A DNA stretch of 64,000 nucleotides from Comamonas kerstersii. GTDB lineage: Bacteria > Pseudomonadota > Gammaproteobacteria > Burkholderiales > Burkholderiaceae_C. Each line of letters starts with the position of its first letter. Positions within the stretch are counted from its first letter, which is position 1. The notes beneath the pieces were generated by a model. That model was not told the origin of the DNA and ran no database searches. It saw nothing but the letters and a program-made list of their open reading frames with translations. Both the position numbers and the translations under genes were made by a program. Location: NCBI RefSeq assembly GCF_008801935.1, contig NZ_VZOT01000001.1, positions 248,001 through 312,000 on the forward strand. Reading direction: 5' to 3'. Shown here piece after piece: positions 1,569 to 62,149 of the stretch.

Positions 1569-2228
1569 ATGCTGCAAGCACACACACCACCTCAGCCCTC
1601 GCACGCCACCACCTCATTTGCCACGCCCGTACAGCTACACGGCTGGGGTGTGCAACTGGCCCCGCTGCGCATGGCGCACATGGCCGGGCTGCAGGAAGCA
1701 GCGGCTGATGGTGAACTCTGGAAGCTGCGCGTGACCTGGGTGCCCGAGCCGGAGGAAACCCGGGCCTATATCCAGAAAGCGCTGGACATGCAGGCACAGG
1801 GCACGCGCTGCCCATTTGTGGTGCTGCAAGCGGACACAGGCAAGGTGCTGGGCACAACCAGCTACCACGACATCGTGCCCGGGGCGCGGCGCGTAGAGAT
1901 TGGCTACACCTGGTACGCCGCCAGCGCCCAGCGCAGCCACGTGAACACCGCCTGCAAGCTGCTGCTGATGCAGCATGCGTTTGAGACCCTGCAGTGCGGC
2001 GTGATCGGCTGGCGCACCGATATTCTGAACACCCGCAGCCAGCAGGCCATTGAACGCCTGGGCGCACGCAAAGACGGCGTGCTGCGCCACCACACCACAC
2101 GCTGGGACGGCAGTGTGCGCGACACCGTGATGTACAGCATGCTGGCCGCAGAGTGGCCCGCTGCACGCCAGCGTTTGCTGCAAAAATTACAGCTGCTTGC
2201 GCCCGCCAATGCTTGGTTTTCAATATAA
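1569..2228 (+). CDS. GNAT family N-acetyltransferase (RimJ/RimL-like)
   Basis: A 219-residue acetyltransferase of the GNAT fold, resembling the RimJ/RimL branch that transfers acetyl from acetyl-CoA to protein N-termini or small amines. The typical order is visible: a strand with VLGTTSYHDI, then RRVEIGYTWYA, a helix with CKLLLMQHAFE, and NTRSQQAIERLGARKDGVLR, the usual end of the CoA-binding part. The substrate cannot be told. The last codons (from 2191) lie inside a 76-bp palindromic repeat, so the C-terminal residues and stop codon appear to be supplied by that element; relatives may end differently. Confidence 0.85.
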   Translation: MLQAHTPPQPSHATTSFATPVQLHGWGVQLAPLRMAHMAGLQEAAADGELWKLRVTWVPEPEETRAYIQKALDMQAQGTRCPFVVLQADTGKVLGTTSYHDIVPGARRVEIGYTWYAASAQRSHVNTACKLLLMQHAFETLQCGVIGWRTDILNTRSQQAIERLGARKDGVLRHHTTRWDGSVRDTVMYSMLAAEWPAARQRLLQKLQLLAPANAWFSI

Positions 2229-2266
2229 ATTGCTTTAAAAACCAATATTTACCAGCGCTAGCAGCT
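2191..2266. repeat. 76-bp imperfect palindrome, copy 1
   Basis: The outer arms AGCTGCTTGCGC (2191-2202) and GCGCTAGCAGCT (2255-2266) pair at 11 of 12 positions, and the inner arms TTGGTTTT and AAAACCAA pair perfectly. This copy overlaps the last codons and stop of the acetyltransferase gene and runs toward the VWA gene. Five other copies of the same length are in the window. Confidence 0.85.
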
Positions 2267-2285
2267 TCTTTTTTGATATTGACCC

Positions 2286-3473
2286 ATGCTGATTGACTTT
2301 TTCTACACCTTGCGTGCCGCCAAACTGCCAGTCTCGGTCAAGGAATACCTGATGCTGCTGGAAGCGCTGCAGGCCGGTGTGGTGGGCCCGCGCAGCAGCG
2401 ATGGCTGGAGCCTGGACGACTTCTACTTCCTCGCCCGCACCACGCTGGTCAAGGACGAAAAGCACTACGACAAGTTCGACCGCGCCTTTGCCGCCTACTT
2501 CAAGGGCGTAGAAATGGTGACCGACTTCCAGAAAGCGCTGCCCGAGGAATGGCTGCGCAAGCTGCTGGAGCGCGAACTCACCCCCGAGCAGAAAGCCGCC
2601 ATCGAGAAGATGGACTGGGACACGCTCATGGAGACGCTCAAGAAGCGCCTCGAAGAGCAGAAGGAGCGCCACGAAGGCGGCAACAAATGGATTGGCACGG
2701 GCGGCACCAGCCCCTTTGGCCACGGTGGCTACAACCCGCAGGGCGTGCGCATTGGCGGGCCAGGGCGCAACCGCAGCGCCGTCAAAGTCTGGGAGCAACG
2801 CGCCTACCGCGACTATGACGACACACAGGAGCTGGGCACGCGCAACATCAAGATGGCCATGCGCCGCCTGCGCAAGTTCGCGCGCCAGGGCGGCGAGCTG
2901 GAGCTGGACCTGCCGGACACCATCCGCAGCACGGCGGCCAACGCGGGCTGGCTGGACATCAAGCTCGTGCCAGAGCGCCACAACAACGTCAAAGTGCTGC
3001 TGCTCATGGATGTGGGTGGCACCATGGACGACCACATCCAGCGCGTGGAAGAGCTGTTTTCCGCCGCCAAGAGCGAGTTCAAGCACCTGGAGTTCTATTA
3101 CTTCCACAACTGCGTCTACGACTTCATGTGGAAGAACAACCAACGCCGCTTTTCCGAGAAGTTCGACACCTGGGACATCATTCGCAAATACAACAAGGAT
3201 TACAAGTTGATATTTGTGGGCGATGCCACCATGAGCCCTTACGAAATTTTGCAATCCGGCGGCAGCGTGGAATATCACAATGAGGAACCCGGCGCGGAGT
3301 GGCTGCAACGCCTGACCCACGCCTTCCCGCACCACGCCTGGATCAACCCTGAGCCTCAGGGTGTGTGGCAATACCGTCAAAGCATTGAGATCATTCGCCA
3401 GCTCATGGGCGGGCGCATGTACCCCCTGACTTTGAAGGGTTTGGAAGAAACCATGAGGCTGCTGTCAAAATAA
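2286..3473 (+). CDS. VWA domain-containing protein (CoxE-like), MoxR partner
   Basis: A 395-residue protein of the VWA family that pairs with MoxR ATPases. The N-terminal half is helical and charged. A glycine-rich linker lies around residues 131-161 (GTGGTSPFGHGGYN). The VWA domain starts near residue 233 with LLLMDVGGTMDDH: Asp242 of the metal-site motif is present, but the canonical DxSxS reads D-V-G-G-T, so the metal site may be altered. A second metal-site element, GDATMSP, is at 312-318. No clear ribosome-binding site precedes the ATG. tamA starts four bases after the stop, suggesting co-transcription with the outer-membrane assembly genes. Confidence 0.88.
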   Translation: MLIDFFYTLRAAKLPVSVKEYLMLLEALQAGVVGPRSSDGWSLDDFYFLARTTLVKDEKHYDKFDRAFAAYFKGVEMVTDFQKALPEEWLRKLLERELTPEQKAAIEKMDWDTLMETLKKRLEEQKERHEGGNKWIGTGGTSPFGHGGYNPQGVRIGGPGRNRSAVKVWEQRAYRDYDDTQELGTRNIKMAMRRLRKFARQGGELELDLPDTIRSTAANAGWLDIKLVPERHNNVKVLLLMDVGGTMDDHIQRVEELFSAAKSEFKHLEFYYFHNCVYDFMWKNNQRRFSEKFDTWDIIRKYNKDYKLIFVGDATMSPYEILQSGGSVEYHNEEPGAEWLQRLTHAFPHHAWINPEPQGVWQYRQSIEIIRQLMGGRMYPLTLKGLEETMRLLSK

Positions 3474-3477
3474 ATCC

Positions 3478-5334
3478 ATGTCCAAGCCATCTCGCACAAA
3501 AACGCCGGTTCTTGTCCCGGCTTTTTTGTTGACCACCGCCTTGCTGCTGAGCGGGTGCTCTCTGCTGTCCAAAAACAAGGCAGGGGACATATTCCAGGAG
3601 CCGGAGAGCTTCACCATCGAGGTCGATGCCCCCAAGGACGTACGCGAACTGCTGGAAAAGTACCTGGAACTGGAACGCTACCGCCACTTTACCGGGCTGC
3701 GCCCCAGTGAGCTGCGCCGACTGCTGGGCGCTTCCGACGGCAATATCCGTAACCTGCTCGGCAGCATCGGCTATTTCTCGCCCACCATTGAACTGGAGCT
3801 GCGTGAACAGCCGCGCGACTCTGGCATTCCCCCCACAGTGATCGTCAAGGTCGACCCCGGCCCTGCAACCAAGATCTCCCGTGTGGACATCAGCTTCAGC
3901 GGCACCAATGCCGATGACCCCAAAGGCAGCTTCATACGCCGCAGCATTGAGCGCAACTGGGACCTGCCTGTGGGAGAAACCTTCAGCCAGTCTGAGTGGA
4001 GCAGCGCCAAAAACGAAGGGCTGCGCAGCCTGCAAAATCGCCGCTACCCCACGGCCCAGCTGCTCAGCAGCAGTGCCAACATTGATACCGACACCAACGA
4101 AGCCGAGCTCAAGGTGAATTACGAGCCTGGCTCGGCCTATTATTTCGGCCCTCTGGTAATTGAGGGCGTAGAGCGCTACAACCCCGCAGGTCTGATTCGT
4201 CTGGCGCGCCTGCCCGTCGGGCAGGTCTACAGCCAAAGCAGCCTGCTCGATGCACAACAGCGCCTGGCATCCAGTGGCTACTACGACTCCGTCTTCCTGA
4301 CACTGGCTACTGAAGTGGCAAAGCCCGGCGAGGCCGAAGTGCACGCCCCCGTGATTGCCGAAGTGCGTGAAGCCAAGCTGCAAAAATGGGTCTATGGTCT
4401 GGGCTTCAGCACCGACACGGGCACGCGTTTTTCGATTGACCACACGCACAACAAAGACCCATTCCTGAACTGGCGTGCGGTCAGCAAACTGCAGCTGGAC
4501 AAGAAGTACCCCGAGATTTCTACCCGTCTGACTTCTCTGCCCGACTACAGCGGCTGGAACTACTTCATTGGCGGCAAGGCTGCGCGCGAAAAGCTGGCAG
4601 ACTACTCCGTCAACAATATTTCGCTGCTGGCAGGCCGCGGCAAGAGCGAAGACAAGATCGACCGCAACTACTACCTGCAGTACGACATGGCCAAGCCACA
4701 GGGCAACGATGACTTGCCCTCCAGCTCGGCGCTCACAGGTAACTACAGCTGGACGGGGCGCTACTTCAACAGCACGCTTAACCCCACCCGTGGCTATGGC
4801 TTCGGCATTGAGCTGGGCGCTGGCTCCACGCTCACCCCGGACAACGAACCCTTTGGCCGCATCAGCGCACGCTGGCTGTACTTCCTGCCGCTGTCCCGTG
4901 ACGAAGAAACGGGCCGCCGCAGCCGTCTGGCGCTGCGCGCCAATGGCGGTGCCGTGCTGGCTCGCCAGGATGCCACCATCCCCGTCACCCTGCTGTTTCT
5001 GGCAGGTGGTGACAACTCCATCCGGGGCTATCGCTACCAGAGCATCGGTGCACGTACGGACAATGGCGCCCTGGTCGGTGGCCGCTACATGCTCACCGGC
5101 AGTGTGGCCTGGATACGCCCCATCACCGTGGCCGGCAACCACTCAGACTGGGAGCAGTCCTACTTTATTGATACCGGTACGGTGACCGACAACATGAGTG
5201 ACACCAAGATCTACACCGGCATTGGCACTGGTGTGCTCTGGAAAAGTCCCGTAGGCCCCATGCAAATCGACGTGGCCTATGGTGTGCAAACCCAAAAAAT
5301 CCGTCTGCACCTGCGTTTAGGTTTTAACTTCTGA
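3478..5334 (+). CDS. tamA: Outer-membrane assembly factor TamA (Omp85 family)
   Basis: A 618-residue Omp85/BamA-family protein, the outer-membrane half of the TAM complex that helps insert autotransporters and other beta-barrels. The N-terminal signal peptide ends in a lipobox-like LLSGC (Cys23), so this copy may be lipid-anchored, unlike classical Omp85 proteins. POTRA domains occupy roughly residues 40-280 (VIEGVERYNPAG is a POTRA strand). The C-terminal half is the barrel, with the lid-loop motif SIRGYRYQSIG near residue 515 and a final aromatic residue (LGFNF) as expected for barrel insertion. It ends four bases before tamB, the inner-membrane partner, so the two form an operon. Confidence 0.92.
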   Translation: MSKPSRTKTPVLVPAFLLTTALLLSGCSLLSKNKAGDIFQEPESFTIEVDAPKDVRELLEKYLELERYRHFTGLRPSELRRLLGASDGNIRNLLGSIGYFSPTIELELREQPRDSGIPPTVIVKVDPGPATKISRVDISFSGTNADDPKGSFIRRSIERNWDLPVGETFSQSEWSSAKNEGLRSLQNRRYPTAQLLSSSANIDTDTNEAELKVNYEPGSAYYFGPLVIEGVERYNPAGLIRLARLPVGQVYSQSSLLDAQQRLASSGYYDSVFLTLATEVAKPGEAEVHAPVIAEVREAKLQKWVYGLGFSTDTGTRFSIDHTHNKDPFLNWRAVSKLQLDKKYPEISTRLTSLPDYSGWNYFIGGKAAREKLADYSVNNISLLAGRGKSEDKIDRNYYLQYDMAKPQGNDDLPSSSALTGNYSWTGRYFNSTLNPTRGYGFGIELGAGSTLTPDNEPFGRISARWLYFLPLSRDEETGRRSRLALRANGGAVLARQDATIPVTLLFLAGGDNSIRGYRYQSIGARTDNGALVGGRYMLTGSVAWIRPITVAGNHSDWEQSYFIDTGTVTDNMSDTKIYTGIGTGVLWKSPVGPMQIDVAYGVQTQKIRLHLRLGFNF

Positions 5335-5338
5335 TTTC

Positions 5339-9391: not shown

Positions 9392-9411
9392 TCGCTGACG
9401 CACAAACTTGG

Positions 9412-9492: not shown

Positions 9493-9567
9493 GTCCCGGT
9501 AGTTCAATGGATAGAACAATTTCCTCCTAAGAAATAGATACAGGTTCGATTCCTGTCCGGGATACCA
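9493..9567 (+). tRNA. tRNA-Arg (anticodon CCU)
   Basis: A full cloverleaf can be drawn. The acceptor stem is GTCCCGG (9493-9499) with CCGGGAT (9557-9563). The D-arm contains AGTTCAATGGAT. The anticodon loop CTCCTAA, anticodon CCT, is closed by ATTTC/GAAAT. The T-arm carries GGTTCGATTCC, and discriminator A plus an encoded CCA end at 9567. It reads AGG codons. The total of 75 bases matches tRNA-Arg(CCU) of other proteobacteria. Confidence 0.95.
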
Positions 9568-9636: not shown

Positions 9637-10192
9637 GTACCGCAGCAGCTCTTGCTTCCCCCCTCTACCAACACCTCCCACATTTAGATTGCTATGACCA
9701 GCTTTGCCCACCCATCAGCAAAGCCTCTATTACCAATCAATCATTTCCGAACTGCCTGTGCGGCAGCGAACTTACGAATGATGGCGTGGCTGGCGACTGG
9801 GCTTTTCTGAGCTGCCTGTGCGGCAGCGAACTACCTCTTCACCGCAAAGGATGAGGCACTATTTTTCTGAGCTGCCTGTGCGGCAGCGAACGAAAAGCAG
9901 GTGCATGCCTTAAAACGCCAAGAGTTTCTGAGCTGCCTGTGCGGCAGCGAACAGGGCAACGCAGGCAGCAGCGAGGTTGTTGATTTTCTGAGCTGCCTGT
10001 GCGGCAGCGAACGCTTGGCGCAGTCGCTGCACTGGGCACGGCGTTTTCTGAGCTGCCTGTGCGGCAGCGAACTTTTTTGCTGTTGTGGTCGTTGTTGTTG
10101 TCTGTTTCTGAGCTGCCTGTGCGGCAGCGAACCTGATTATTTTTTGGGGAAATATACTGGTAAATTTCTGAGCTGCCTGTGCGGCAGCGAAC

Positions 10193-10224
10193 TATTACGG
10201 GCCGTTCTCGCGCCCATTCCGTGC
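10193..10224 (-). repeat. Duplicated spacer A (second copy at 12294-12325)
   Basis: This 32-bp spacer, starting TATTACGGGCCG on the plus strand, is identical to the spacer at 12294-12325. Thirty-five repeat units separate the copies, so this is not a simple tandem duplication of one unit. Confidence 0.97.
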
Positions 10225-12113
10225 TTTCTGAGCTGCCTGTGCGGCAGCGAACGTGCCAACGCCTGTGACGGTCGCACTGTTGTTTTTCTGAGCTGCCTGT
10301 GCGGCAGCGAACGTCGTATTCGGGTAGGTCGTTGGCGTCGATCATTTCTGAGCTGCCTGTGCGGCAGCGAACGTGTATGAGAAAGGTGCTCAGCTCTTTG
10401 GTGATTTCTGAGCTGCCTGTGCGGCAGCGAACCAGTACCTCGGCGGCAAGGGCCTGCCGGTCACTTTCTGAGCTGCCTGTGCGGCAGCGAACTCTCCTGT
10501 CCGTTGCTGCCAGTCACGCCAAGATTTCTGAGCTGCCTGTGCGGCAGCGAACTACGCCGGAATCCTCGCAGTCACCGGGTGCGATTTCTGAGCTGCCTGT
10601 GCGGCAGCGAACCATGTCTTCGACGGTGTAGCCGAGCGATTTAATTTCTGAGCTGCCTGTGCGGCAGCGAATGCTTCTTGAGACTGCTGCATCCACCACT
10701 GGATTTTCTGAGCTGCCTGTGCGGCAGCGAACGAGGGGATGACGTCATGCTTGGCGATGTGCTGTTTCTGAGCTGCCTGTGCGGCAGCGAACATTCCCGC
10801 GTAGCGATACGCGAGTTCACTGCTTTTCTGAGCTGCCTGTGCGGCAGCGAACAAGAAAAGTGGCCACAAGTGAAGTTGATAGCATTTCTGAGCTGCCTGT
10901 GCGGCAGCGAACATTCTTCGCGGGCGTAGCCCTCGGAACCGAACTTTCTGAGCTGCCTGTGCGGCAGCGAACCTACGCCACCGCGCTGCATGAGCTGGGC
11001 CACTTTTCTGAGCTGCCTGTGCGGCAGCGAACCTGGTGAGCGAATCGCTACGCAGCGTGCAGAATTTCTGAGCTGCCTGTGCGGCAGCGAACGCAATGAG
11101 CCAGCCCTGATCTGCTGTGAGTGATTTCTGAGCTGCCTGTGCGGCAGCGAACCTCCGGCGGCGGCTGTGCGCTCGTCGATGACTTTTCTGAGCTGCCTGT
11201 GCGGCAGCGAACGTTCTCGGCCGTCCTGTGACGGGCGTGGACGATTTCTGAGCTGCCTGTGCGGCAGCGAACGCCTTAAAGAACTGGGCGCAGATTCGTT
11301 TCGATTTCTGAGCTGCCTGTGCGGCAGCGAACAAGACGACCTTGCGGCGCTTCGGCTTGGTCTGTTTCTGAGCTGCCTGTGCGGCAGCGAACATCTGCGC
11401 ACATGGGTTGCGAAAGATGGCTAATTTCTGAGCTGCCTGTGCGGCAGCGAACGTGGTGACTTATCAGGGCCACGCCGCAGAAGTGTTTCTGAGCTGCCTG
11501 TGCGGCAGCGAACTGGTAGGGCTGATCCTGCACGCGCTCTACAATTTCTGAGCTGCCTGTGCGGCAGCGAACATTTTTGCCGCCCGTGGCAGCAAACCCA
11601 TTGTTTTCTGAGCTGCCTGTGCGGCAGCGAACCTGATCGGCCGCCTCGGCGGCCTGCCGGGCACTTTCTGAGCTGCCTGTGCGGCAGCGAACCGCATCTA
11701 CATTGCGACCGACGATGACCAAGAGTTTCTGAGCTGCCTGTGCGGCAGCGAACGAATTGCATGGAAAGATCACCCGCTTGGACTTTTTCTGAGCTGCCTG
11801 TGCGGCAGCGAACGTTCGTTCCATTCGCGCCGGGCCGCCAAATATTTTCTGAGCTGCCTGTGCGGCAGCGAACGTTCTATAGCTTCTGCCCTTACTCGTG
11901 GCTCTTTTCTGAGCTGCCTGTGCGGCAGCGAACCCGACTTTTACTATTCGGAAAAAAGCCGTGAATTTCTGAGCTGCCTGTGCGGCAGCGAACGTGCGTC
12001 GGTTGTCGGAGCTGCTGCCGGTGTTTTTCTGAGCTGCCTGTGCGGCAGCGAACATTGAAGCCTCAAAACTACGCCGTTATCCATTTTTCTGAGCTGCCTG
12101 TGCGGCAGCGAAC

Positions 12114-12145
12114 TCTGACCGGCAACCACAATCCCGGTACTGTCA
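12114..12145 (-). repeat. Duplicated spacer B (second copy at 12594-12625)
   Basis: This 32-bp spacer, starting TCTGACCGGCAA on the plus strand, is identical to the spacer at 12594-12625, eight repeat units closer to the leader. Confidence 0.97.
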
Positions 12146-12892
12146 TTTCTGAGCTGCCTGTGCGGCAGCGAACAAACAGGACTGGTGCCCCAAGCTGGAA
12201 AGCGTTTTCTGAGCTGCCTGTGCGGCAGCGAACCCATCTTTGGCTTGCCTTCTTCGTCACGAATTTTTCTGAGCTGCCTGTGCGGCAGCGAACTATTACG
12301 GGCCGTTCTCGCGCCCATTCCGTGCTTTCTGAGCTGCCTGTGCGGCAGCGAACGAGAAGGCATCACCAGAAGAACGGGCAAAGCTTTTCTGAGCTGCCTG
12401 TGCGGCAGCGAACACTAAGCGAACGGCTGGGGACTGCACACGACCTTTCTGAGCTGCCTGTGCGGCAGCGAACGCTGCAATGTTGAGGTTGTAAAAGGTG
12501 CAGCATTTCTGAGCTGCCTGTGCGGCAGCGAACAATAAGTGCGCGAAGGCATAGCGTTCTCCGGTTTTCTGAGCTGCCTGTGCGGCAGCGAACTCTGACC
12601 GGCAACCACAATCCCGGTACTGTCATTTCTGAGCTGCCTGTGCGGCAGCGAACTACTCTTTACCTGTTTGAGCGTTATAGGGCAGTTTCTGAGCTGCCTG
12701 TGCGGCAGCGAACTTTGCGGCCTGCTCTTTGGCCTCTTTCTCTGTTTCTGAGCTGCCTGTGCGGCAGCGAACAACTTTTTGCCTGCTACTTGCTGCAATG
12801 TTGATTTCTGAGCTGCCTGTGCGGCAGCGAACACGCTGATCGTCAGCACCTTGGCCGACCGCATTTTCTGAGCTGCCTGTGCGGCAGCGAAC

Positions 12893-23726: not shown

Positions 23727-23802
23727 AGCTTTCAGCGCTTGTGTTTATTGATTTTCAGAATGGAATACCTCTGAAAACCAGTATTTCCAAGCGCTAACCG
23801 CT
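23727..23802. repeat. 76-bp imperfect palindrome, copy 2
   Basis: The arms AGCTTTCAGCGCTTG and CAAGCGCTAACCGCT pair at 12 of 15 positions; the inner arms GATTTTCAGA and TCTGAAAACC also pair. It lies between two convergent genes. Confidence 0.85.
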
Positions 23803-26289: not shown

Positions 26290-27561
26290 TTACTTGCGCT
26301 GCCACACAGCGGCAAAGAAACCATCGGTTTCATGCGCATGGGGCCACAGGCGTACATATTGCGTACCGGTTTCGCCACCGGCGCACAGAGCGGCGGCGTT
26401 TTCCACCTTGAGCTTGTCCAGCACTTCACCCGCATCCAGCGGCACAAAGTCAAAGTGCGCTTTCTGGAAGGCTTCGGCAATCAGTTCATTTTCTTCAGGC
26501 AGCACGGAGCAGGTGGCATAGACCAGACGGCCGCCAGACTTCACCATGCGCGCGGCGCTGGTCAGGATGGACAGCTGCTTTTCCGTCAGCTCGGCCACGG
26601 CTTTTTCGTCCTGACGCCACTTCAGGTCAGGGTTTCGGCGCAGGGTACCCAGGCCGGAGCAAGGCGCATCGACCAGCACGCGGTCAATCTTGCCTGCCAG
26701 GCGCTTGACGCGCTCATCACGCTCGTGTGCCAGCGCTGCGGGGTGCACGTTCGACAGGCCGCTGCGTGCCAGGCGGGGCTTGAGCGCTTCCAGGCGGTGA
26801 GCGGACACGTCAAACGCATACAGGCGGCCGGTGTTGCGCATCTGGGCCCCAATGGCCAGCGTCTTGCCACCGGCACCGGCGCAAAAGTCCACGACCATCT
26901 CACCGCGCTTGGCGTCCAGCAGCAGGGCCAGCAGCTGCGAGCCTTCGTCCTGCACTTCAATGCGGCCTTCCTTGAAGGCTTCAAGCTTGGTCAACGCAGG
27001 CTTGTCCTGCACACGCAGACCCCAGGGGGAGAAAGGCGTGGCTTCGGCCTTGATGCCTTCCTTAGCCAGTTCTTTTTGCACGGCGTCGCGCTTGGCGTTC
27101 AGCGCGTTCACGCGCAGGTCCAGCGGCGCGGGCTCGAGCATGCTGGCGGCCAGTGCGTCGAACTGATCGCCCACCTGGGCCTGCAGCTTGTCGGCCATCC
27201 ACTGGGGCAGGTTGTGGCGATGCTGGGGGAGCAGCTCTTCGGGCTTGACCGCGTCGCAGTCCTTGAGCCACTTGGCTTCCTGATCGCTCAGCGCAGCCTG
27301 CAAAAAGTTGCGGGGCGCGTGAAAGCCCAGAATGGCCAGACGGCGCTCCTTGGGGCCGGAGCCGGAGCGGGCCAGTGCTTCAAACAGGGTTTTCTTGCGC
27401 AGCACCGTATAGACGGTCTCCGCCAGCGTGGCACGTTCGCGGGGGCCAAGGTTACGGTGGTCGCGGAAATAGCGAGACACCACGGCGTCTGCCGGGTGCT
27501 GGAATTGGAGGGTCAGCTTGACCAGTTCGGCGCAAGCGTCGAGAAGGGCTTTGGGATGCAT
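26290..27561 (-). CDS. RsmB/NOL1/NSUN family RNA cytosine-C5 methyltransferase
   Basis: A 423-residue SAM-dependent m5C RNA methyltransferase. The N-terminal NusB-like part is followed by a Rossmann core with the SAM loop VVDFCAGAGGKTL near residue 240, DAPCSGLGTLRRNPDLKW near 318, and LVYATCSVLPEENE near 368. Both catalytic cysteines (in APCSG and ATCSV) are present. E. coli RsmB methylates 16S rRNA C967; the length here is close to it. Whether this is RsmB itself or a paralogue cannot be decided without the rest of the genome, since no fmt/rsmB cluster is present. Confidence 0.9.
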   Translation of the reverse strand: MHPKALLDACAELVKLTLQFQHPADAVVSRYFRDHRNLGPRERATLAETVYTVLRKKTLFEALARSGSGPKERRLAILGFHAPRNFLQAALSDQEAKWLKDCDAVKPEELLPQHRHNLPQWMADKLQAQVGDQFDALAASMLEPAPLDLRVNALNAKRDAVQKELAKEGIKAEATPFSPWGLRVQDKPALTKLEAFKEGRIEVQDEGSQLLALLLDAKRGEMVVDFCAGAGGKTLAIGAQMRNTGRLYAFDVSAHRLEALKPRLARSGLSNVHPAALAHERDERVKRLAGKIDRVLVDAPCSGLGTLRRNPDLKWRQDEKAVAELTEKQLSILTSAARMVKSGGRLVYATCSVLPEENELIAEAFQKAHFDFVPLDAGEVLDKLKVENAAALCAGGETGTQYVRLWPHAHETDGFFAAVWQRK

Positions 27562-27629: not shown

Positions 27630-27705
27630 AGCTGCCAGCGCTTGTATTTGCTTGTTTTTGAATGGTTTTCTATGTAAAACCCTTTTTACACAAGCGCTAG
27701 AAGCT
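27630..27705. repeat. 76-bp imperfect palindrome, copy 3
   Basis: The arms AGCTGCCAGCGCTTGT and ACAAGCGCTAGAAGCT pair at 14 of 16 positions, and pairing extends into flanking ATA/TAT. It lies between divergent genes, where promoters are expected. Confidence 0.85.
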
Positions 27706-27724: not shown

Positions 27725-27982
27725 ATGTCTGACGCCCATTTGCCGCCCCTGATCGTCACCCCGCCCGGCCTGTACCGCCACTACAAAGGCAATCTGTACC
27801 AGGTGATGGACACCGTGCGCCACAGCGAAACACTGGAGCCCATGACGCTGTACCGCGCCCTGTACGGCGAGCGAGGCCTGTGGGTGCGCCCAGCCGCCAT
27901 GTTCAATGAAACCGTGGTGATTGACGGTGTAGAACAGCCCCGCTTTGCGCGCTGCGCCGACAGTGACGCAGCTACAGCTTGA
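27725..27982 (+). CDS. DUF1653 domain protein
   Basis: An 85-residue cytoplasmic protein made almost entirely of a DUF1653 domain: GLYRHYKGNLYQVMDTVRHSET, then MTLYRALYGERGLWVRP and MFNETV. The family has an SH3-like fold and unknown function. The ATG follows 19 bases after a palindromic repeat. Confidence 0.85.
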   Translation: MSDAHLPPLIVTPPGLYRHYKGNLYQVMDTVRHSETLEPMTLYRALYGERGLWVRPAAMFNETVVIDGVEQPRFARCADSDAATA

Positions 27983-31485: not shown

Positions 31486-32604
31486 ATGGATTTCGATTTT
31501 TCCGATGACCAGCAGCAGCTGCGCGAAGCCGCACGCCGCTGGGTAGAAAAAGCCTATACCTTTGAACACCGCCGCGCTGCCGTACAGGCGGGGGGCTTTC
31601 AGCGCGAGAGCTGGAACGCCCTGGCCGAACTGGGCCTGACCGCACTGAACGTGCCGGAAGCCCATGGCGGCATGGGCATGGGCGCCGTAGAAGCCATGGT
31701 GGTCATGGAGGAAATGGGCCGTGGCATGGTGCTGGAGCCGCTGGCGCAAAGTTTTCTGGCCGCACGCGTCATCAGCCAGTTCGGCAGCGAAGCCGTCCAG
31801 GCCGCATGGCTGCCGCGTATTGCCAGTGGCGAAGCGCTGGCCGTGCTCGCACATCAGGAGCGCCGAGCGCGCTACAGACTGGACATTTGTGAGTCTAAAG
31901 CCTCTCAAACGCCCGATGGTTATGCACTGACCGCTCAGAAAAGCATAGTACCTGCGGGCGATCAGGCCGATGCCTATCTCGTTCCCGCACAGCTGGATGG
32001 CCAGATCGCCCTGTTCCTGGTCGAGCGCAGCGCGCCCGGTGTCAGCGCCCGTGGCTATGGCACACAGGACGGCAGCCGCGCCGCTGAGGTGGAAACCGAT
32101 GGCAGCCCCGCCACGCTGATCACCACCGAAGGGCTGGCGGCGCTGGAGCTGGCGGTGGATGTGGGCAGCGCCGCCGTCTGCGCCGAGGCCGTGGGCGTGA
32201 TGGAAGAAGTGCTGCGCATCACGGCCGACTACCTCAACCAGCGCAAGCAGTTTGGCGTGCCAATTGCCAGCTTCCAGGCCCTGCGCCACCGTCTGGCCGA
32301 CATGAAAATGCAGCTGGAGCTGGCCCGTTCCATGAGCTACTACGCCAGCCTGATGCTGGAGACCCCTGCCGAGCAGCGCCGCCGTGCCATGGCCCGTGCC
32401 CGTGTGCAGCTGGGCCAGTCGATGCGCTATGTGGGCCAGCAGGCCGTGCAGCTGCATGGCGGTATTGGGGTGACGGACGAGTACATCGTCAGCCACCAGT
32501 TCAAAAAGCTCACGCAACTGGAAATGACCTACGGCGACACCCTGCACCACCTCGGCGAAGTGTCTGCCCGCATGCTGGAGACTGCAGGCGTAGGCGAAGC
32601 CTGA
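31486..32604 (+). CDS. Acyl-CoA dehydrogenase, small subunit (PimD-like)
   Basis: A 372-residue partner subunit with the acyl-CoA dehydrogenase fold: MDFDFSDDQQQLREA at the start, QRKQFGVPIASFQALRHRLADM, and LHGGIGVTDEYIVSHQFKKL near the end. GAAGGAG lies before the ATG. In the middle (about 31874-31955) the DNA uses rare codons (AGA, TGT, TCT, ATA) and encodes a region that matches relatives poorly, in contrast to the flanks. Together with the upstream gene it probably forms a heteromeric dehydrogenase. Confidence 0.88.
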   Translation: MDFDFSDDQQQLREAARRWVEKAYTFEHRRAAVQAGGFQRESWNALAELGLTALNVPEAHGGMGMGAVEAMVVMEEMGRGMVLEPLAQSFLAARVISQFGSEAVQAAWLPRIASGEALAVLAHQERRARYRLDICESKASQTPDGYALTAQKSIVPAGDQADAYLVPAQLDGQIALFLVERSAPGVSARGYGTQDGSRAAEVETDGSPATLITTEGLAALELAVDVGSAAVCAEAVGVMEEVLRITADYLNQRKQFGVPIASFQALRHRLADMKMQLELARSMSYYASLMLETPAEQRRRAMARARVQLGQSMRYVGQQAVQLHGGIGVTDEYIVSHQFKKLTQLEMTYGDTLHHLGEVSARMLETAGVGEA

Positions 32605-38480: not shown

Positions 38481-38556
38481 AGCTGTTAGCGCCTGTATTT
38501 GCTTGGTTTCAATATGAAAACTATCTGAAACCAAGTATTTACAAGCGCAAGCAGCT
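38481..38556. repeat. 76-bp imperfect palindrome, copy 4
   Basis: Outer arms start AGCTGTTAGCGCCTGT and end ACAAGCGCAAGCAGCT. The inner arms CTTGGTTTCA and TGAAACCAAG pair perfectly, giving an almost continuous hairpin. It lies between ileS and lspA. Confidence 0.88.
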
Positions 38557-48074: not shown

Positions 48075-49010
48075 CTACCTGACAGCGCCTGGCTTCTTGG
48101 CCCAGCGCGTAAACACAAAAATGCCCACCATGACCAGGCTGGTGCCTGCAACCATCCAGACATTCAGCTGCTCATCGAGCAGCCACACGCCCATCAAGAT
48201 GGTGGACAGCGGGCCAATCATGCCGGTCTGCGCTGTCATGCCGGGGCCGATGCGCTCAATCGCCATCATGACCATGAGCACCGGCGCTACCGTGCAGGCC
48301 GTGGAATTGAGCACGGACAGCCACAGCACCTCGGGCGCCACTGCCATGGCCGAGATGGGATGGGTCAGCAAAAACTGTGCAATGCAGAAAAAGCAGGCCA
48401 CGCTGGAGGCCAGACCCACCAGCCGCAGCGAGCCCAGGCGCTTGACCATCTCGCCGCTGTAGACCATGTAGATGGCATAGCTCACGGCACTGGCAAACAC
48501 CAGCAGCGTGCCCCAGATGGCATCACTGCCCTGCGCGCCCACCTCATGCCCAAAGACCAGCAGCACGCCGCAATAGCTCAGCAGCATGCCGACAAACTGC
48601 ATCCAGGTAATGCCGCGCTTGTAGACCACCCAGCCAAAGAGCACGACCAGGGTGGGGTTGAGGTAGAGAATCAGCCGCTCCAGCGCCGCTGTGATGTAGG
48701 CCAGCCCGGCAAAGTCCAGATAGCTGGCCAGGTAGTAGCCACTAAAGCCCAGCCCCAGCACGCCCAGCCAGTCCTTGCGTGTGAGTGCTGCCTGCCCGCG
48801 CCCGGCCCACCATGCCATGAGCAAAAAGATGGGCAGCGCAAACAGCATGCGGTACATGAGCAGCGTGACCGCATCCACCCCATAGCGATAGGCCAGCTTA
48901 ACGATGATGGCCTTGCCACTGAAGGCAATCGCCCCCAGCACCGCCAGCGTCAGGCCTAGCGCTACCCCTTTAGGAGCTTTTTGCGCTGGTGGATTCTGGA
49001 TTTCAGACAC
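48075..49010 (-). CDS. EamA-family (DMT) transporter
   Basis: A second EamA protein of 311 residues and ten predicted helices, with LAVLGAIAFSGKAIIVKLAYRYGVD at the start and ALERLILYLNPTLVVLFGWVVYKR at the end of the first half. It is not closely similar to the EamA protein at 46.3-47.2 kb. The start is a GTG at 49010 without a clear binding site. It lies 30 bases upstream of the SDR gene on the same strand. Confidence 0.88.
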   Translation of the reverse strand: MSEIQNPPAQKAPKGVALGLTLAVLGAIAFSGKAIIVKLAYRYGVDAVTLLMYRMLFALPIFLLMAWWAGRGQAALTRKDWLGVLGLGFSGYYLASYLDFAGLAYITAALERLILYLNPTLVVLFGWVVYKRGITWMQFVGMLLSYCGVLLVFGHEVGAQGSDAIWGTLLVFASAVSYAIYMVYSGEMVKRLGSLRLVGLASSVACFFCIAQFLLTHPISAMAVAPEVLWLSVLNSTACTVAPVLMVMMAIERIGPGMTAQTGMIGPLSTILMGVWLLDEQLNVWMVAGTSLVMVGIFVFTRWAKKPGAVR

Positions 49011-49035
49011 TTTTATATTGCAAACCTAGATAAAT

Positions 49036-49060
49036 CAAACGCAAGGCGCTATTGTTTTAA
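49036..49060. repeat. Solo right arm of the 76-bp palindrome
   Basis: CAAACGCAAGGCGCTATTGTTTTA resembles the right end of copy 4 (ACAAGCGCAAGCAGCTATTGTTTTA) at most positions. No left arm is present at the expected distance. Confidence 0.5.
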
Positions 49061-55786: not shown

Positions 55787-55787
55787 C

Positions 55788-56312: not shown

Positions 56313-56372
56313 GGGCTGGCATTGTGCGGCCAAAGGCATGCTGTCTGCTGTCACTGGAGTTTTTACAAATCT

Positions 56373-56410
56373 ATAGCTGTCAGCGCTTGCTGCATCAGCG
56401 CCAGAGGCCA
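56373..56410. repeat. Shortened form of the 76-bp palindrome
   Basis: ATAGCTGTCAGCGCTTGC is a good left arm. About 15 bases on, a degenerate right arm (ATCAGCGCCAGAGG) follows. The inner part seems to be lost. Confidence 0.5.
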
Positions 56411-56414
56411 AAAA

Positions 56415-57239
56415 CTATCTCAACGCTGACAAACCACGCAGCACAGCACGTGCGTTGTTGCTGGTGGCCTGCGCCAGCGCATCGGCGCTGATGCCACGCA
56501 GCTGCGCCACCTCCTGCGCAATGCGCGGCAGCTCCGCCGGGCTGTTGCGGCCCTGCGGCTGGCCTGCAGCACGCGCCTCGGCCGTGGTGTAGAGCCAGTG
56601 CGGCGGAATGTCTGGCGCATCGGTTTCCATCACGATGCTCTCCAGCGGCAGTGTCGCCGCCAGCTCACGCAACTTGAGCGCGCGGTCATAGGTGACGGCG
56701 CCGCCAAAGCCGAGCTTGAAGCCCAGATCGATAAACGCCTGGGCCTGCTGCAAGCTGCCGTTAAAAGCATGGGCAATGCCGCCCACCACCGGCTTGGCAC
56801 GCAGGTTTTTGAGCAGGCGGTCGCTGCTCTTGCGCACATGCAGTATGACGGGCAAGCCAAACTCGCGCGCCAGCTGGATTTGCTGCTCGTAGAACCAGAT
56901 CTGCCGCTCGGCATCCAGCCCCGGTACAAAAAAGTCCAGGCCGATTTCGCCAACTGCCACCAGGTGCGGGTCGTCCTGCACCTCCACCAGCAGCTCGCGC
57001 AGCACAGCAATATCGCCTTCCTGCGCGTTCGGGGTGTAGAGCGGGTGAATGCCCAGCGCATAGCTGTCGCCATGCCGGTGGGCCAGTGCGATCACCTCGC
57101 GCCAGTGCGCACGGTGCACGGCGGGGATGACTATGTGGCCCACACCCGCAGCCCTAGCCGCTGCACGCACAGCGTCACGGTCGGCGTCAAATTCCGCTGC
57201 GTCGAGGTGGCAATGGGTGTCAATCCAGCTGTGCATCAT
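56415..57239 (-). CDS. TatD family metal-dependent hydrolase
   Basis: A 274-residue TatD-like TIM-barrel nuclease. Metal ligands are IDTHCHLD (residues 6-13), GEIGLDFF near 97, ILHVRKS near 131, HAFNG near 157 and METDAPDIPP near 205. Such enzymes act as DNA 3'-exonucleases or deacylases; the exact role here is not known. Two ATGs lie side by side at 57239 and 57236. Confidence 0.92.
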   Translation of the reverse strand: MMHSWIDTHCHLDAAEFDADRDAVRAAARAAGVGHIVIPAVHRAHWREVIALAHRHGDSYALGIHPLYTPNAQEGDIAVLRELLVEVQDDPHLVAVGEIGLDFFVPGLDAERQIWFYEQQIQLAREFGLPVILHVRKSSDRLLKNLRAKPVVGGIAHAFNGSLQQAQAFIDLGFKLGFGGAVTYDRALKLRELAATLPLESIVMETDAPDIPPHWLYTTAEARAAGQPQGRNSPAELPRIAQEVAQLRGISADALAQATSNNARAVLRGLSALR

Positions 57240-57250
57240 TCATTTTTGAT

Positions 57251-57326
57251 AGCTCTTAGCGCTTGTAAATCAATACTTTCAGATAGAAAAGTATTTGAAA
57301 TGCTTATATATAAAGCGCAAGCAGCT
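57251..57326. repeat. 76-bp imperfect palindrome, copy 5
   Basis: It starts AGCTCTTAGCGCTTGT and ends AAAGCGCAAGCAGCT. The inner part can pair as ATACTTTC with GAAAAGTAT. It lies between lolD and tatD, which are on the same strand. Confidence 0.83.
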
Positions 57327-57334
57327 CTCATTTT

Positions 57335-58015
57335 TCATTCAGACAAGCGCCCGCGCACAATGCGCACCACGCGGTCACACTTGACGGCCAGGCTTTCGTC
57401 GTGCGTGACCATCACAAAAGCCGTGCCGTGGTTGCGTGCCAGCTCCAGCATGAGTTCGAACACGCCATCGGCCGTCGAGCGGTCCAGATTGCCCGTGGGC
57501 TCATCGGCCAGCACACAGGCAGGCTGCGTCACCAGCGCGCGTGCAATGGCCACGCGCTGGCGCTCACCGCCAGAGAGCTCTGCCGGGCGGTGCGCCATGC
57601 GCTCCTTCAGCCCCACGGCTTCGAGCATGCGTGCGGCCTGCGCCAGAGCTTGCTCTTTGGAATCGCGGCGAATGCGCAGCGGCATGGCCACGTTGTCCTG
57701 CGCGCTGAACTCGGGCAGCAGGTGGTGGAACTGGTAGATAAAGCCCAGATGCTGGTTGCGCAGCTCACCCTGCTTGCGAGGGCTGAGCGTGTGCATGGGC
57801 TGCCCCATGAGCTGCACACTGCCCTGCGTGGGCGCATCCAGACCGCCGAGCAGATGCAGCAACGTGCTCTTGCCCGAGCCCGAGGCGCCGACGATGGCCA
57901 GCGTCTCGCCCGCATGCACCTGCAGGTTGACCTCATGCAGCACCTGCACGTTCAGGTGCCCATCTTCAAAGCGCTTGGAGAGATTGCGCGCGTCCAGTAC
58001 GACTTGCTTATTCAT
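57335..58015 (-). CDS. lolD: Lipoprotein-releasing system ATP-binding protein
   Basis: A 226-residue ABC ATPase powering release of lipoproteins from the inner membrane to LolA. Walker [10 protein letters not shown] is at residues 43-51, the Q-loop and LolD motif follow in [14 protein letters not shown], the signature is [15 protein letters not shown], and Walker [13 protein letters not shown]. It overlaps the end of the permease gene by eight bases, so the two are translated together. Confidence 0.95.
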
Positions 58016-59261
58016 AACGCAGCGCCTCCGCAGGGTTCACGCGGCTGGCGCGCCAGCTGGGGTAAATGGTGGCCACAAAGGCCAGAATCAGAGAAATCAC
58101 GGCAATCGGCACGATGTCGCTGGCCTGTGGCTCGCTGGGCATGGTGCTGATCAGATAGATGTCCTTGGGCAGGAAGGTCGCGCCCAGCGCCTGCTCAATG
58201 GCTGGCACGATGACGTCGATATTGCAGGCCACCAGCAGGCCCAGCGCCAGCCCGGCAAAGGTGCCAATCACGCCCACCATGGCACCTTGCACCATGAAGA
58301 TACCCATGATGGACGCGGGCGAGGCACCCAGCGTGCGCAGAATGGCAATGTCTGCGCGCTTGTCCGTCACCGTCATCACCAGGGTCGAGACCAGATTGAA
58401 GGCCGCCACGGCCACGATCAGGGTCAGGATGATGAACATCATGCGCTTTTCCAGCTGCACGGCGGCAAACCAGGTCTTGTTCTGCTGCGTCCAGTCACGC
58501 AGGTAGAGGAACTCGGTAATCATGCCCGCCAGCTCTCGGGCCACGCGCGGCGCTTCGTGCAGGTCCTTGAGCTTCAGGCGAATGCCTGTTGGCCCTTCCA
58601 GGCGGAAGATGCGCTGCGCATCCTCATGGTGCAGCATGGCCATGGCAGAGTCGTATTCGTAGTGGCCGGAGTCAAACGTGCCCGCCACCGTCATCTGCTT
58701 GAGGCGCGGCACCACACCAGCCGGTGTGACCTGGCCGCTGGGCGCAATCAGCGTCACCTTGTCCCCCACGCTAACGCCCATCTGGCGTGCCAGCTCCTGG
58801 CCGAGCACGATGTTGAAGCTGCCGGGCTGCAGCAGCTGCAGCACATCGGCATTCGTCGCTGCCAGATCGGTCACCTCGCCTTCGCGCGCCGGATCAATGC
58901 CGCGCACGATGGCGCCCTTCATGTCCTCTCCGCGTGCAATCAAGCCCTGCGCTGCCACAAAAGGCGCTGCGCCCACCACCTCCGGGTGCTGCCGTGCCTG
59001 CTGCATGGTGGTGTCTACATCCACCATGGCCTGGCCATTGGGCGCAAAGATTTCGATGTGCGAGACCACGCTGAGCATGCGGTCGCGCACTTCCTTCTGG
59101 AAGCCGTTCATCACACTCAGCACAATGATCAGCGCTGCCACGCCCAGCGCAATGCCGAGCATAGAGACACCGGAAATAAAGGAAATAAAACCATTGCGCC
59201 GTGTGGCGCGGCCTGCGCGGGTGTAGCGCCAGCCCAGAGCGAGTTCGTAGGGAATTTGCAT
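58008..59261 (-). CDS. lolC: Lipoprotein-releasing system permease (LolC/LolE type)
   Basis: A 417-residue inner-membrane permease with four helices: one at about residues 27-50, then a large periplasmic domain, then three near the C-terminus (from about 272). [18 protein letters not shown] and [32 protein letters not shown] are typical. Only one permease gene is present here, so the complex may be a LolF-type homodimer as in many betaproteobacteria. The gene symbol is a compromise between lolC, lolE and lolF. Confidence 0.92.
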
Positions 59262-59349
59262 ACGTGGACGCCATTGTGGCATTGCTCCAAAGGCCAGCAT
59301 GTCAGAAGTCTTCAGCGCAGGCCTTCTGGTTTGGGGACAATACCCGCCT

Positions 59350-60360
59350 ATGTCGTCCCCTGTCCTGCCTGAACTTCCGCTGCCGTTTACCGTGCCTCCC
59401 CGCCCGGCACGTGCCCGCCATCTGCATCTGGTCCTGCCTTACGCCGCGCTGGCACAGGACAGCTGCCAGCTGATCCTGCGGGAGCTGCAACTGCCCCAGC
59501 TCGATCAGCTGCTGGCCCAGCTGGCCCCCAGCCATGTGGACGAAGGCAGCATGGACCAGCTGATTCCGCCCCACGAACGGGCACTGGCCCACCTCTGGGG
59601 GCTGGATGCACAATCCCCCGCCTGGGCAGCGCTGGCACAGGACACGCCCCGCCCCCAGCCCTGCGCCTGGATGACGCTGTGCCACTGGACAGCCGGGGCC
59701 GATCAGATTCGCATGGACGACCCTGCCAGCCTGCCGCTGGACATGGAGGACGCCCAGACCCTGCACACCATTTTGCAGCCCTGGTTTGCAGAAGATGGCC
59801 TGCAGCTGGAGCTAACCAGCCCCGGCCGCTGGCTGGTCAGCGGCGCGCCGCTGCAGAGGCTGGAATCCGCCTCACTGGACCGCGTGCTGCTGCGCGACGT
59901 GAGCCACTGGATGCCGCAAGGCCCGCACCAGCGCACGCTGCAGCGCCTGCACAGCGAAGTGCAGATGCTGCTGTACAACCACCGCTTTAACGCCGAGCGT
60001 GCCGCGCGCGGTTTGCCCCCCATCAACGCCTTCTGGCTGCATGGCGTGGGCCAGCTGGATGCAGAAGCGCTACAGGCAGCGCGCACGCTGCACAGCGTGA
60101 CGCCCGTGCTGTTCGTAGACAGCCTGCGCCAGAGCGCACTGCGCCAGGACTGGCCCGCCTGGAAACAGGCCTGGCTGGCAGCCGAGGCTGGCCCTGTGGC
60201 CCAGACCCTGGCCCATGTGCAGCTGGGCGGCACCGCCACCGTCACTTTCTGCGGAGAGCAGCATGTGCGTAGCTACACCACGCAGCGCCGCAGCTGGCTG
60301 CAAAAAATCAAGAACAAGATCAGCCCCCAGCGCTTTGCTGGATTGCATGAAGCGCTATGA
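59350..60360 (+). CDS. Conserved hypothetical protein upstream of recJ
   Basis: A 336-residue cytoplasmic protein. Relatives in Burkholderiales are often loosely labelled phosphoglycerate mutase or regulatory protein, but I see no mutase motif (no RHGE). Conserved-looking blocks are RARHLHLVLPYA at the start, MTLCHWTAGADQIRMDDP, LQPWFAEDGLQLEL, GRWLVSGAPL, and SEVQMLLYNHRFNAERAARGLPPINAFWLHG. Its stop overlaps the recJ start by four bases (ATGA), implying coupling. The ATG at 59350, after GGGGACA, is preferred to 59299. Confidence 0.75.
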   Translation: MSSPVLPELPLPFTVPPRPARARHLHLVLPYAALAQDSCQLILRELQLPQLDQLLAQLAPSHVDEGSMDQLIPPHERALAHLWGLDAQSPAWAALAQDTPRPQPCAWMTLCHWTAGADQIRMDDPASLPLDMEDAQTLHTILQPWFAEDGLQLELTSPGRWLVSGAPLQRLESASLDRVLLRDVSHWMPQGPHQRTLQRLHSEVQMLLYNHRFNAERAARGLPPINAFWLHGVGQLDAEALQAARTLHSVTPVLFVDSLRQSALRQDWPAWKQAWLAAEAGPVAQTLAHVQLGGTATVTFCGEQHVRSYTTQRRSWLQKIKNKISPQRFAGLHEAL

Positions 60361-62066
60361 AAATCATTGAAAGAGAAATCGCTGAACACAGCGTGCAAGA
60401 CCTGGTACGCGCAGGCGTGAACCCGCTGCTGGCACGCCTGTATGTGGCGCGCGGCGTGCAGTCCTGCGACGAACTGGACACCAGCCTGAGCAAGCTGCTG
60501 CCGCCCTCCGGCCTCAAAGGCATTCATGAAGCGGCGCGCATTCTGGCCGACGCCATCGCCGCGCAGCGCAGCATCTGCATCGTGGCCGACTATGACTGCG
60601 ACGGAGCCACCGCCTGCGCCGTGGGTGTGCGCGGCCTGCGCATGCTGGGCGCCCAGCACGTTACCTACGAAGTGCCAGACCGGATTCAGGACGGCTATGG
60701 TCTGTCCGCCCCCATCGCCCGGCGCGTACATGCCGCCGGGCATGAGGTGCTGGTCACCGTGGACAACGGCATCGGCAGCATCGATGGTGTGGCTGAAGCC
60801 ATGCGGCTGGGCATGACCGTGGTCGTCACCGACCACCACCTGCCCGGCGAGGTGCTGCCCACGCCCCACGCCATGGTCAACCCCAACCAGCCCGGCTGCA
60901 GCTTTGCCAGCAAGCACATGGCCGGGGTAGGCGTCATGTTCTACGTGCTGCTCATGCTGCGTGCCGAACTGCGCGCACGCGGCGTGTTCACGGCGCAGAC
61001 CCAGCCCAAGCTCGATACGCTGCTGCCACTGGTGGCACTGGGCACGGTGGCCGATGTGGTCAGGCTGGACACCAACAACCGCCGTCTTGTTGCACAGGGC
61101 CTGCAGCGCATTCGCAAGGGCCATATGCAGGCCGGCATTCGCGGGCTGTATGAAGCTGCGGGCAAGGAATACTGGCAGGCCACCACTTCGGACTTTGGCT
61201 TTGCGCTCGGCCCGCGCATCAATGCCGCAGGCCGCCTGGCCGACATGACGATTGGCATTGAATGCCTGCTGACGGACGACTACGGCAAGGCGCTGGAACT
61301 GGCCAAGCTGCTCACCCGCATCAACCGCGAGCGCCAGGAGATGGAGTCCGACATGCGCGTGCAGGCCTTTGCACTGGCCGACGAGCTGTTTGAAGATGGC
61401 GTCACGCCGCCTGCGGCCATCAGCGTCTATGACCCGGAGTTCCACGAAGGCGTGGTCGGCATTGTGGCCTCACGCGTCAAGGACCGCCTGCACCGACCCA
61501 CCTTTGTGTTTGCGGCCAGCCAGGCGGAAGGCAAGAGCCATGAACTCAAGGGCTCGGGCCGCTCCATTCCCGGCTTTCACCTGCGCGATGCGCTGGACCT
61601 GGTCGCCAAGCGCCACCCCGGCGTGCTGCTGCGCTTTGGCGGCCATGCCATGGCGGCAGGCTGCACCATTGCGGAAGACAAATTCCACGAATTTGAGCGT
61701 GCGTTCACGCAAGTGGCGCAGGAGTGGCTGGATGCCAAGACACTCACCCGCTGCGTGGAAACCGACGGGCCGCTGGACCCCACCTTCCGCCGTGCCGAGA
61801 TCGTGGAGCAGCTGAATCTGGAAGTCTGGGGCCAGGGCTTTGCGCCACCCACCTTCAGCGAGGATGTGGAAATCCTCTCGCAACGGCTGGTGGCTGAGAA
61901 ACACCTCAAGCTCAAGGTGCGCCACCGTGGCGACGAGGTGGACGGGATCTGGTTTGGCCGCACCGAGCCGCTGCCTGAATGGGTGCACATGGCGTTTCGC
62001 CTGGACATCAACGAGTTCCGCGGTGAGCGCAAGGTGCAGTTTCTGGTCGAAGGTGCGCAAGCATAA
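60357..62066 (+). CDS. recJ: Single-stranded-DNA-specific exonuclease RecJ
   Basis: A 569-residue 5'-3' exonuclease of the DHH phosphoesterase family, acting in RecF-pathway recombination, mismatch and base-excision repair. DYDCDGATA near residue 80, VTVDNGIGS, and VTDHHLPGE (the DHH motif) near residue 160 coordinate metal. LGPRINAAGRLADM lies in the linker, and the DHHA1 domain has HEGVVGIVASRVKDR and FGGHAMAAGCTI. All catalytic residues are present. Confidence 0.96.
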   Translation: MKIIEREIAEHSVQDLVRAGVNPLLARLYVARGVQSCDELDTSLSKLLPPSGLKGIHEAARILADAIAAQRSICIVADYDCDGATACAVGVRGLRMLGAQHVTYEVPDRIQDGYGLSAPIARRVHAAGHEVLVTVDNGIGSIDGVAEAMRLGMTVVVTDHHLPGEVLPTPHAMVNPNQPGCSFASKHMAGVGVMFYVLLMLRAELRARGVFTAQTQPKLDTLLPLVALGTVADVVRLDTNNRRLVAQGLQRIRKGHMQAGIRGLYEAAGKEYWQATTSDFGFALGPRINAAGRLADMTIGIECLLTDDYGKALELAKLLTRINRERQEMESDMRVQAFALADELFEDGVTPPAAISVYDPEFHEGVVGIVASRVKDRLHRPTFVFAASQAEGKSHELKGSGRSIPGFHLRDALDLVAKRHPGVLLRFGGHAMAAGCTIAEDKFHEFERAFTQVAQEWLDAKTLTRCVETDGPLDPTFRRAEIVEQLNLEVWGQGFAPPTFSEDVEILSQRLVAEKHLKLKVRHRGDEVDGIWFGRTEPLPEWVHMAFRLDINEFRGERKVQFLVEGAQA

Positions 62067-62073
62067 AAACAAG

Positions 62074-62149
62074 AGCTGCCAGCGCTGACAAATCAAGCAT
62101 TTCAGATAGTTTTCTATTTGAAGTGCTTGATACATCAGCGCAAGCAGCT
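62074..62149. repeat. 76-bp imperfect palindrome, copy 6
   Basis: Outer arms start AGCTGCCAGCGCTGA and end TCAGCGCAAGCAGCT. The inner arms ATCAAGCA and TGCTTGAT pair perfectly and pairing continues inward, making one long hairpin. It lies between the convergent recJ and chemoreceptor genes. Confidence 0.88.

Follow-up and report, generated by a model that had tools for sequence, protein, structure and literature searches.

Small palindromic repeats in bacterial chromosomes are usually regarded as mobile litter or as terminators, and several families of them have been described. REP/BIME elements are docking sites for gyrase and IHF (PMC2267715), and REPs are 20-40 bp long, have one end tagged with GTAG or CGTC and are tied to RAYT genes (PMC3733652); ERIC and Correia/NEMIS are intercistronic palindromic elements (PMC10969869); and BRE is a dispersed repeat of Bordetella and Comamonadaceae, approximately 75-91 bp long with 69% GC, which varies in length and occurs in tandem arrays (PMC3110155). 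Here we analyze a family of 76-bp palindromes present in a 64,000-nucleotide stretch of Comamonas kerstersii (assembly GCF_008801935.1, contig NZ_VZOT01000001.1, positions 248,001 to 312,000), the whole of which we call the window, and in the genome to which it belongs (G000; all other G labels denote compared genomes). The sequence of these elements is nearly free, but they retain their length, the pattern of pairing and their position, which makes them a testable case for a bacterial shape code at gene ends. The reading that we prefer, with a probability of roughly 0.4, is that they are docking sites specific in shape and arms, with a role like that of REP/BIME but forming a separate family.

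The sequence-only reading of the window had described the palindromes as constant in length, and our search upholds this. Using a pattern of the two outer arms, for which a total length of 59-80 bp was allowed, we identified 55 matches in G000 and 0 with the reversed pattern, and all of the matches listed are 76 bp. With 61-90 bp allowed, 27 of 27 distinct G000 copies in the fetched loci were 76 bp long, as were 87 of 90 distinct copies from named genomes, with the remaining 3 being 75 bp. Versions of 75 bp are present at loci L056, L089 and L115. Run over 100 genera of the taxonomic family, the outer-arm patterns returned 76 and 35 bp as the only recurrent lengths, the rest being scattered and chance-like, and in the fetched loci, where spacings of up to 119 bp were covered, 35, 75 and 76 alone occurred. 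The short form is exactly 35 bp (15 + 5 + 15) and has the same A/T-tract ends as the 76-bp form; in the 20 contexts that we read, it was located between convergent genes in 10, between tandem genes in 7, overlapping a called open reading frame (ORF) in 3, and between divergent genes in 0. Conservation outside the core extends for approximately 13 bp on either side and then ends (244 flanks), giving units of 102 bp and 61 bp with inverted repeats, i.e., the 13-bp A/T-tract ends, at both termini. The flank consensus, read outward, is approximately [AC]T[TC]N-TTTT-N-[AG][AT]AG, with the tract mostly TTTT and sometimes AAAA, and the left and right flanks vary independently of each other. In the symmetric profile, the core ends in AGC...GCT, and is flanked by CTATC-A-tract on one side and T-tract-GATAG on the other.

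Further copies elsewhere in the genome, which the earlier reading had proposed to seek, are abundant. In addition to the outer-arm matches, an arm-free pattern, in which AGC, TTTCA, TGAAA and GCT are required at fixed positions and the arms are unconstrained, gave 89 matches in G000, which is a lower bound because just 3 of the 7 copies in the window are detected in this way. The pattern was present in 35 of 53 genomes of the genus, taken to be Comamonas, with counts that vary widely among species up to a maximum of 157, and its control gave 0 in every genome. A covariance model, R1, built from the 55 G000 copies (the six described window copies among them), listed at least 150 strand matches in G000, equal to 87 places by hand count, all 76 wide; 150 of 3,015 candidates were scored, and two of the six window copies were missed. 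R1 was run on 9 of the 18 genomes without an arm-free match. A contig scan, whose listing names 80 of its 90 stretches, found named carriers mostly in Comamonas and Acidovorax, together with Diaphorobacter, Giesbergeria, Simplicispira, Paenacidovorax, Ramlibacter and an Aquabacterium metagenome-assembled genome (MAG), and also among MAGs labelled just Comamonadaceae, Burkholderiaceae, Gammaproteobacteria or Pseudomonadota. On the complete chromosome of G146, the copies are spread out, with fewer at 2.0-3.0 Mb (by eye, 50 of 54 listed positions), and on this by-eye spread we set aside nucleoid occlusion or an origin-to-terminus gradient. Phage and plasmid collections searched by blastn with one 102-bp copy gave no match, a weak test because the sequence of the element changes so fast. 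The outer-arm pattern matched 43 places in viral contigs, with lengths that scatter widely; six of these matches are 76 bp and resemble coding repeats by eye. The short-form pattern gave 21. On the blastn result and the scattered lengths in viral contigs, we rejected carriage by phages or plasmids. A likeness to IHF sites and to the attC sites of integrons was considered on general grounds and set aside.

Analysis of the arms demonstrated that they covary. In the six window copies, symmetric pairing reaches 73.6% in register and 34-42% when shifted by 1-4 bases; for the 55 strict copies alone, total pairing shows a small excess (72.7% versus 71.2% shuffled). Within single genomes, columns 22-26 pair beyond arm shuffles (z 4.3 in G103, 7.9 in G104 and 3.0 in G000), while bases at the centre avoid pairing (z -4.4, -4.6 and -6.4, respectively). 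Across 213 copies from five genomes, we observe within-genome covariation in columns 4-6, 8, 13-14, 22-27 and 30-34, no significant within-genome covariation in the 6-nt spacer of columns 16-21, and anti-pairing in columns 37-38 (z -7.5 and -11), with the centre being AAAA or TTTT in 125 of 213 copies where 21 are expected. The proposal that the inner arms differ between copies and yet remain self-complementary is therefore correct for the inner stem (columns 22-27 and 30-34), where pairing exceeds that of shuffles with z of 3-8 within single genomes, and does not extend to the arm as a whole, since the spacer is not significant and columns 37-38 are reversed.

The position of the copies was analyzed using gene calls from a home-made ORF caller, with duplicates and locus-end copies dropped from the position and flank sets. 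Of 165 distinct copies, 57 lie between convergent genes, 84 between tandem genes and 7 between divergent genes, with 11 overlapping a called ORF and 6 at locus ends. The distance to the stop codon has a median of 20 bp (n = 143, an overlapping set) and a mode of 6-7 bp. This placement directly behind stop codons, with few divergent cases, is what would be seen in a family of bidirectional intrinsic terminators, where a hairpin with a T-tract on either side stops transcription from both directions, and this is the main rival to our reading, although we consider it unlikely. It is also favored by T-runs of at least 4 in 68-75% of convergent and tandem flanks, and by 15 of the 57 convergent pairs in which the element is the sole candidate terminator, because less than 20 bp is left on both sides. 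The tandem copies argue against it: the T-type flank is no more frequent downstream (45/60) than upstream (50/60), and the A-type is found in 10 downstream and 3 upstream. In addition, the T-tract begins approximately 4 nt away from the stem, many copies are internal to operons, 57 of the 84 tandem ones having no more than 40 bp between them and the following start codon (for example, ileS-lspA in the window and infB-rbfA in G123 and G111), the element behind recJ is followed by a distinct terminator-like hairpin, and termination leaves the exact length and the inner stem unexplained. An intrinsic terminator has a GC-rich hairpin with a T-tract immediately after it in the direction of transcription, whereas here T-tracts are present on both sides and the downstream one is not stronger. 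A directional terminator was set aside as the whole story, and the bidirectional version is kept as a rival. The flank data and the operon-internal copies bear out the statement of the sequence-only reading that the palindromes are not simply terminators.

These elements are located within transcripts and the predicted folds of the window copies are stable (-21 to -48 kcal/mol), so an RNA element acting in mRNA 3′ or intercistronic regions, e.g., as a processing or stability hairpin, has to be considered. On the gene-sense strand of tandem copies, we counted 97 G-U and 111 A-C, and in a larger set 135 and 141, both near their nulls; that G-U is no commoner than A-C speaks against selection for pairing in the sense-strand RNA only, which would favor G-U. 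Hairpins may, however, be selected on both strands, and terminators selected in both directions would likewise yield equal numbers. One site that fits RNA is infB-rbfA (L360:1501-1576, L364:1501-1575), where a GAAA tetraloop is present in most species compared, the GAAA-looped inner stem hardly differs among G103, G104 and G123 (orthology in G103 and G104 being by sequence, not flanks), and the sense-strand changes are, by hand reading, to G-U alone. An RNA role is likely at this single site, judging by its sequence; as an account of the family, we regard an RNA element as improbable.

Comparison between genomes showed that the elements are inherited in place. Copies within a genome diverge from one another about as much as column shuffles do, with top identities in variable columns of 0.82, 0.72 and 0.64, and the lack of near-identical copies within a genome indicates no recent burst. 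We identified 32 cross-species pairs with both flanks matching (76-bp copies alone entered), in which the identity of the element ranges from 32 to 76 of 76 positions. When window sites were located by flanks alone in G104, G123 and G103, 7 of 8 measurable orthologs were 76 bp and one was 75; in two further orthologs, at 27630, the left arm is decayed, and the one in G104, of ambiguous alignment, was left out of the count. Arm types, which we term dialects, have changed at orthologous sites while the element was kept. For example, at the recJ site G000 has AGCGC arms and G123 has TGCCG arms, both elements being 76 bp. Strict AGCT/AGCGC copies number 55 in G000 and 0 in G123, against 89 and 65 arm-free matches, and the G123 copies in the loci that we read are mostly of the TGCC type. 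The genomes richest in arm-free matches, G136 (157) and G114 (129), contain 3 and 0 strict AGCT/AGCGC copies, which indicates that other dialects are used there.

The element is also missing in places. G103 is without one at 57251, and G111 has none at five window sites, all located by flanks. Although the RecJ protein of G111 is 89% identical to that of G000, G111 has 0 arm-free matches and 23 R1 strand matches versus 142 in G123, i.e., the family is nearly gone in this species. Its length has changed as well: of the eight long places listed in G111, 5 are 75 wide, two of them by loss of an outer-arm base on direct reading. In G123, four listed places have widths other than 76, an effect of trimming in at least one case, which is 76 by direct reading.

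The sequence-only reading had suggested REP- or MITE-type elements (MITE, miniature inverted-repeat transposable element) mobilized by a RAYT/IS200-type transposase. A match to PF01797 (E ≤ 1e-3), which also detects other Y1 transposases, was found in 47 of 53 genomes, including most of the element-free ones, and no match at this threshold was found in the element-bearing G103, G114, G126 and G136 (40, 129, 12 and 157 copies), the assemblies of G114 and G126 being 85-87% complete. No 76-bp element was found, using a simple pattern, within approximately 2.5 kb on each side of 20 Y1-like genes, which may have other repeats of their own. With the Y1-like gene independent of the presence of the element, giving no match in the richest genome and without a linked element, with no recent burst and with orthologous positions kept, this suggestion was not supported. 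A search for target duplications in 164 copies, at offsets of 0-21 and for lengths of 2-9, found none (no exact excess; highest z 3.4 in more than 1,000 combinations), although old duplications could have decayed. G000 contains a single-copy RAYT-like gene (G000:C1:475859-476134, L195), whose motif is PNQ, not PNH, in G000, G104 and G123, so that the gene may be inactive; the G000 copy has apparently lost the first HUH histidine. An empty site in a relative, also sought at the suggestion of the earlier reading, is apparent at the lolD-tatD joint, which measures 2 bp in G130, whereas in G000 and G123 the element occupies it; the family may therefore have been mobile long ago. The corresponding rival holds that the elements are remnants of a formerly mobile family resembling MITEs or REPs, and that today's pattern reflects their ancestral structure and its gradual decay. 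In keeping with it are the scatter of intergenic copies bearing inverted ends, the two size classes with common ends as in other miniature elements, this empty site and counts that differ between species, but the retention of length despite arm turnover at orthologous sites, together with the absence of near-identical pairs, of target duplications and of a linked transposase in these searches, leads us to consider it quite unlikely.

A fixed length, arms that are free but paired, A4/T4 tracts that show no strand preference and inheritance bound to place would be expected if a trans-acting factor recognized DNA shape and the outer arms. In the mechanism that we favor, the elements are an ancient set of dyad-symmetric sites on the chromosome, today inherited in place, and selection acts on their geometry, in which columns 1-15 form an outer stem, columns 16-21 a spacer, columns 22-34 an inner stem and columns 37-40 an A4/T4 centre, with a total of 76 bp. 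This core is set inside the A/T-tract ends, and the short form consists of the outer stem with a 5-nt loop. A putative protein would recognize the outer arms at their fixed spacing, in duplex or extruded-hairpin DNA, and recognition at gene ends and operon joints may serve for docking or as a boundary, much as REP/BIME sites serve gyrase or IHF. A bolder version, which we find doubtful, is that these are chromosome-wide, geometry-locked palindromes with species-specific dialects, read as DNA by a co-evolving putative dyad- or hairpin-binding protein, and that where the reader is lost (perhaps in G111) lengths drift and sites vanish together. Species such as G111 would offer a natural loss in which to find the reader, and the family would be an unusual resource for telling selection on hairpins in DNA from selection on hairpins in RNA.

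Several points weigh against the docking-site reading. The reader protein is only putative, and we infer it, the reading of DNA rather than RNA, and the function from the patterns above. The length is not absolute, since 75 bp occurs in the three named copies, in one G104 ortholog and in one Acidovorax MAG (CC_bin31), where 2 of 2 strict copies are 75 bp and both have lost length at the centre, a hint that the length may be particular to the species. The 35- and 76-bp spacings differ by 41 bp, approximately 4 helical turns, but are just two values. The T-tracts at the ends are compatible with terminators as well. Counts in other lineages are biased downwards because the arm-free pattern and R1 were both derived from one lineage. 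Finally, when species are pooled, pairing in columns 16-21 exceeds that of shuffles (z 2.1 for tandem and 4.6 for convergent copies), to which the mixing of species may contribute; if this signal is real, arm-to-arm copying would explain the covariation better than selection. Such copying is at the heart of a further rival, a mutational artefact in which template switching in quasi-palindromes keeps the arms alike with no function. It would give covariation with equal G-U and A-C without the need for selection, and the weak pooled pairing of the spacer suits it, but it should homogenize the spacer within genomes too, where columns 16-21 are not significant, and it fixes neither the total length nor the position behind stop codons; we regard it as very improbable.

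In the window itself, direct reading bears out all six copies at the coordinates first reported, each a 76-bp core without an assigned strand. R1 scores them at 48.5-73.6 bits on either strand, and favors them by construction. Copy 1 is located at 2191-2266 (54.3/48.5 bits), with a full unit of approximately 2178-2279 including the 13-bp ends, and copy 2 at 23727-23802 (60.2/52.6 bits). Copy 3 (27630-27705, by direct reading and R1), the left arm of which is decayed in G104, is flanked by divergent genes encoding an rsmB/F-type methyltransferase (26290-27561, minus strand) and a DUF1653 protein (27725-27982, plus strand). Copy 4 (38481-38556) lies between ileS and lspA, both on the plus strand; its counterpart is 76 bp with other arms in G123 and 75 bp in G104, and none was recognized in G111. 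Copy 5 (57251-57326, by direct reading and R1) occupies the gap between tatD (56415-57239, minus strand) and an ABC-transporter gene, lolD by position (57335-58015, minus strand). Copy 6 (62074-62149) lies 7 bp behind recJ; the 13-bp A/T-tract ends of its 102-bp unit, defined from the flank profile and likewise without strand, are at 62061-62073 on the left and 62150-62162 on the right. It is followed by the short GC-rich hairpin at approximately 62160-62185, terminator-like by eye, which is also present after the recJ element in G103, G104 and G111. Our search additionally identified a decayed 76-bp core, again without strand, that the earlier reading had overlooked (48975-49050; R1 31.3 bits, E 8e-7), with orthologs of 76 bp in both G104 and G123. 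A weak R1 match of 77 bp at 31859-31935 (19 bits) was taken as chance. Above the gathering score, Rfam 15 recognized only tRNA and CRISPR repeats in the 64-kb window, with no family for the palindromes. The CRISPR array, at 9744-12892 beside a tRNA (9493-9564), contains 53 repeats of 28 bp (Rfam CRISPR-DR4), with two spacers each present twice, and we take it to be type I-F-like.

No description of the family was found in the literature searched, where listings were partly by title alone. It is set apart from BRE by the description of that repeat, not by sequence, in that the window copies have 33-43% GC and are single and 76 bp long. The SPRITE and inverted DNA-uptake-sequence pairs, compared by description only, resemble it as terminator-like repeats behind genes; DNA-uptake sequences also have species dialects and are far more numerous. 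ERIC and Correia/NEMIS occur, like this family, as intercistronic palindromes in size classes, but differ in sequence, length and hosts, whereas here no target duplication was found, the arms are nearly free and the length is kept. ERIC has a 127-bp consensus and belongs to enterobacteria, and the present family, with cores of 76 and 35 bp, units of 102 and 61 bp and other taxa, does not belong to it. In contrast to REPs, its elements are 76 or 35 bp, symmetric, without a GTAG or CGTC tag in the conserved columns and without RAYT linkage in our searches. It resembles REP/BIME in kind, including the IHF-binding RIB/RIP subclass: in both, many intergenic palindromes lie at gene 3′ ends and inside operons, and their sequence is specific to the species.

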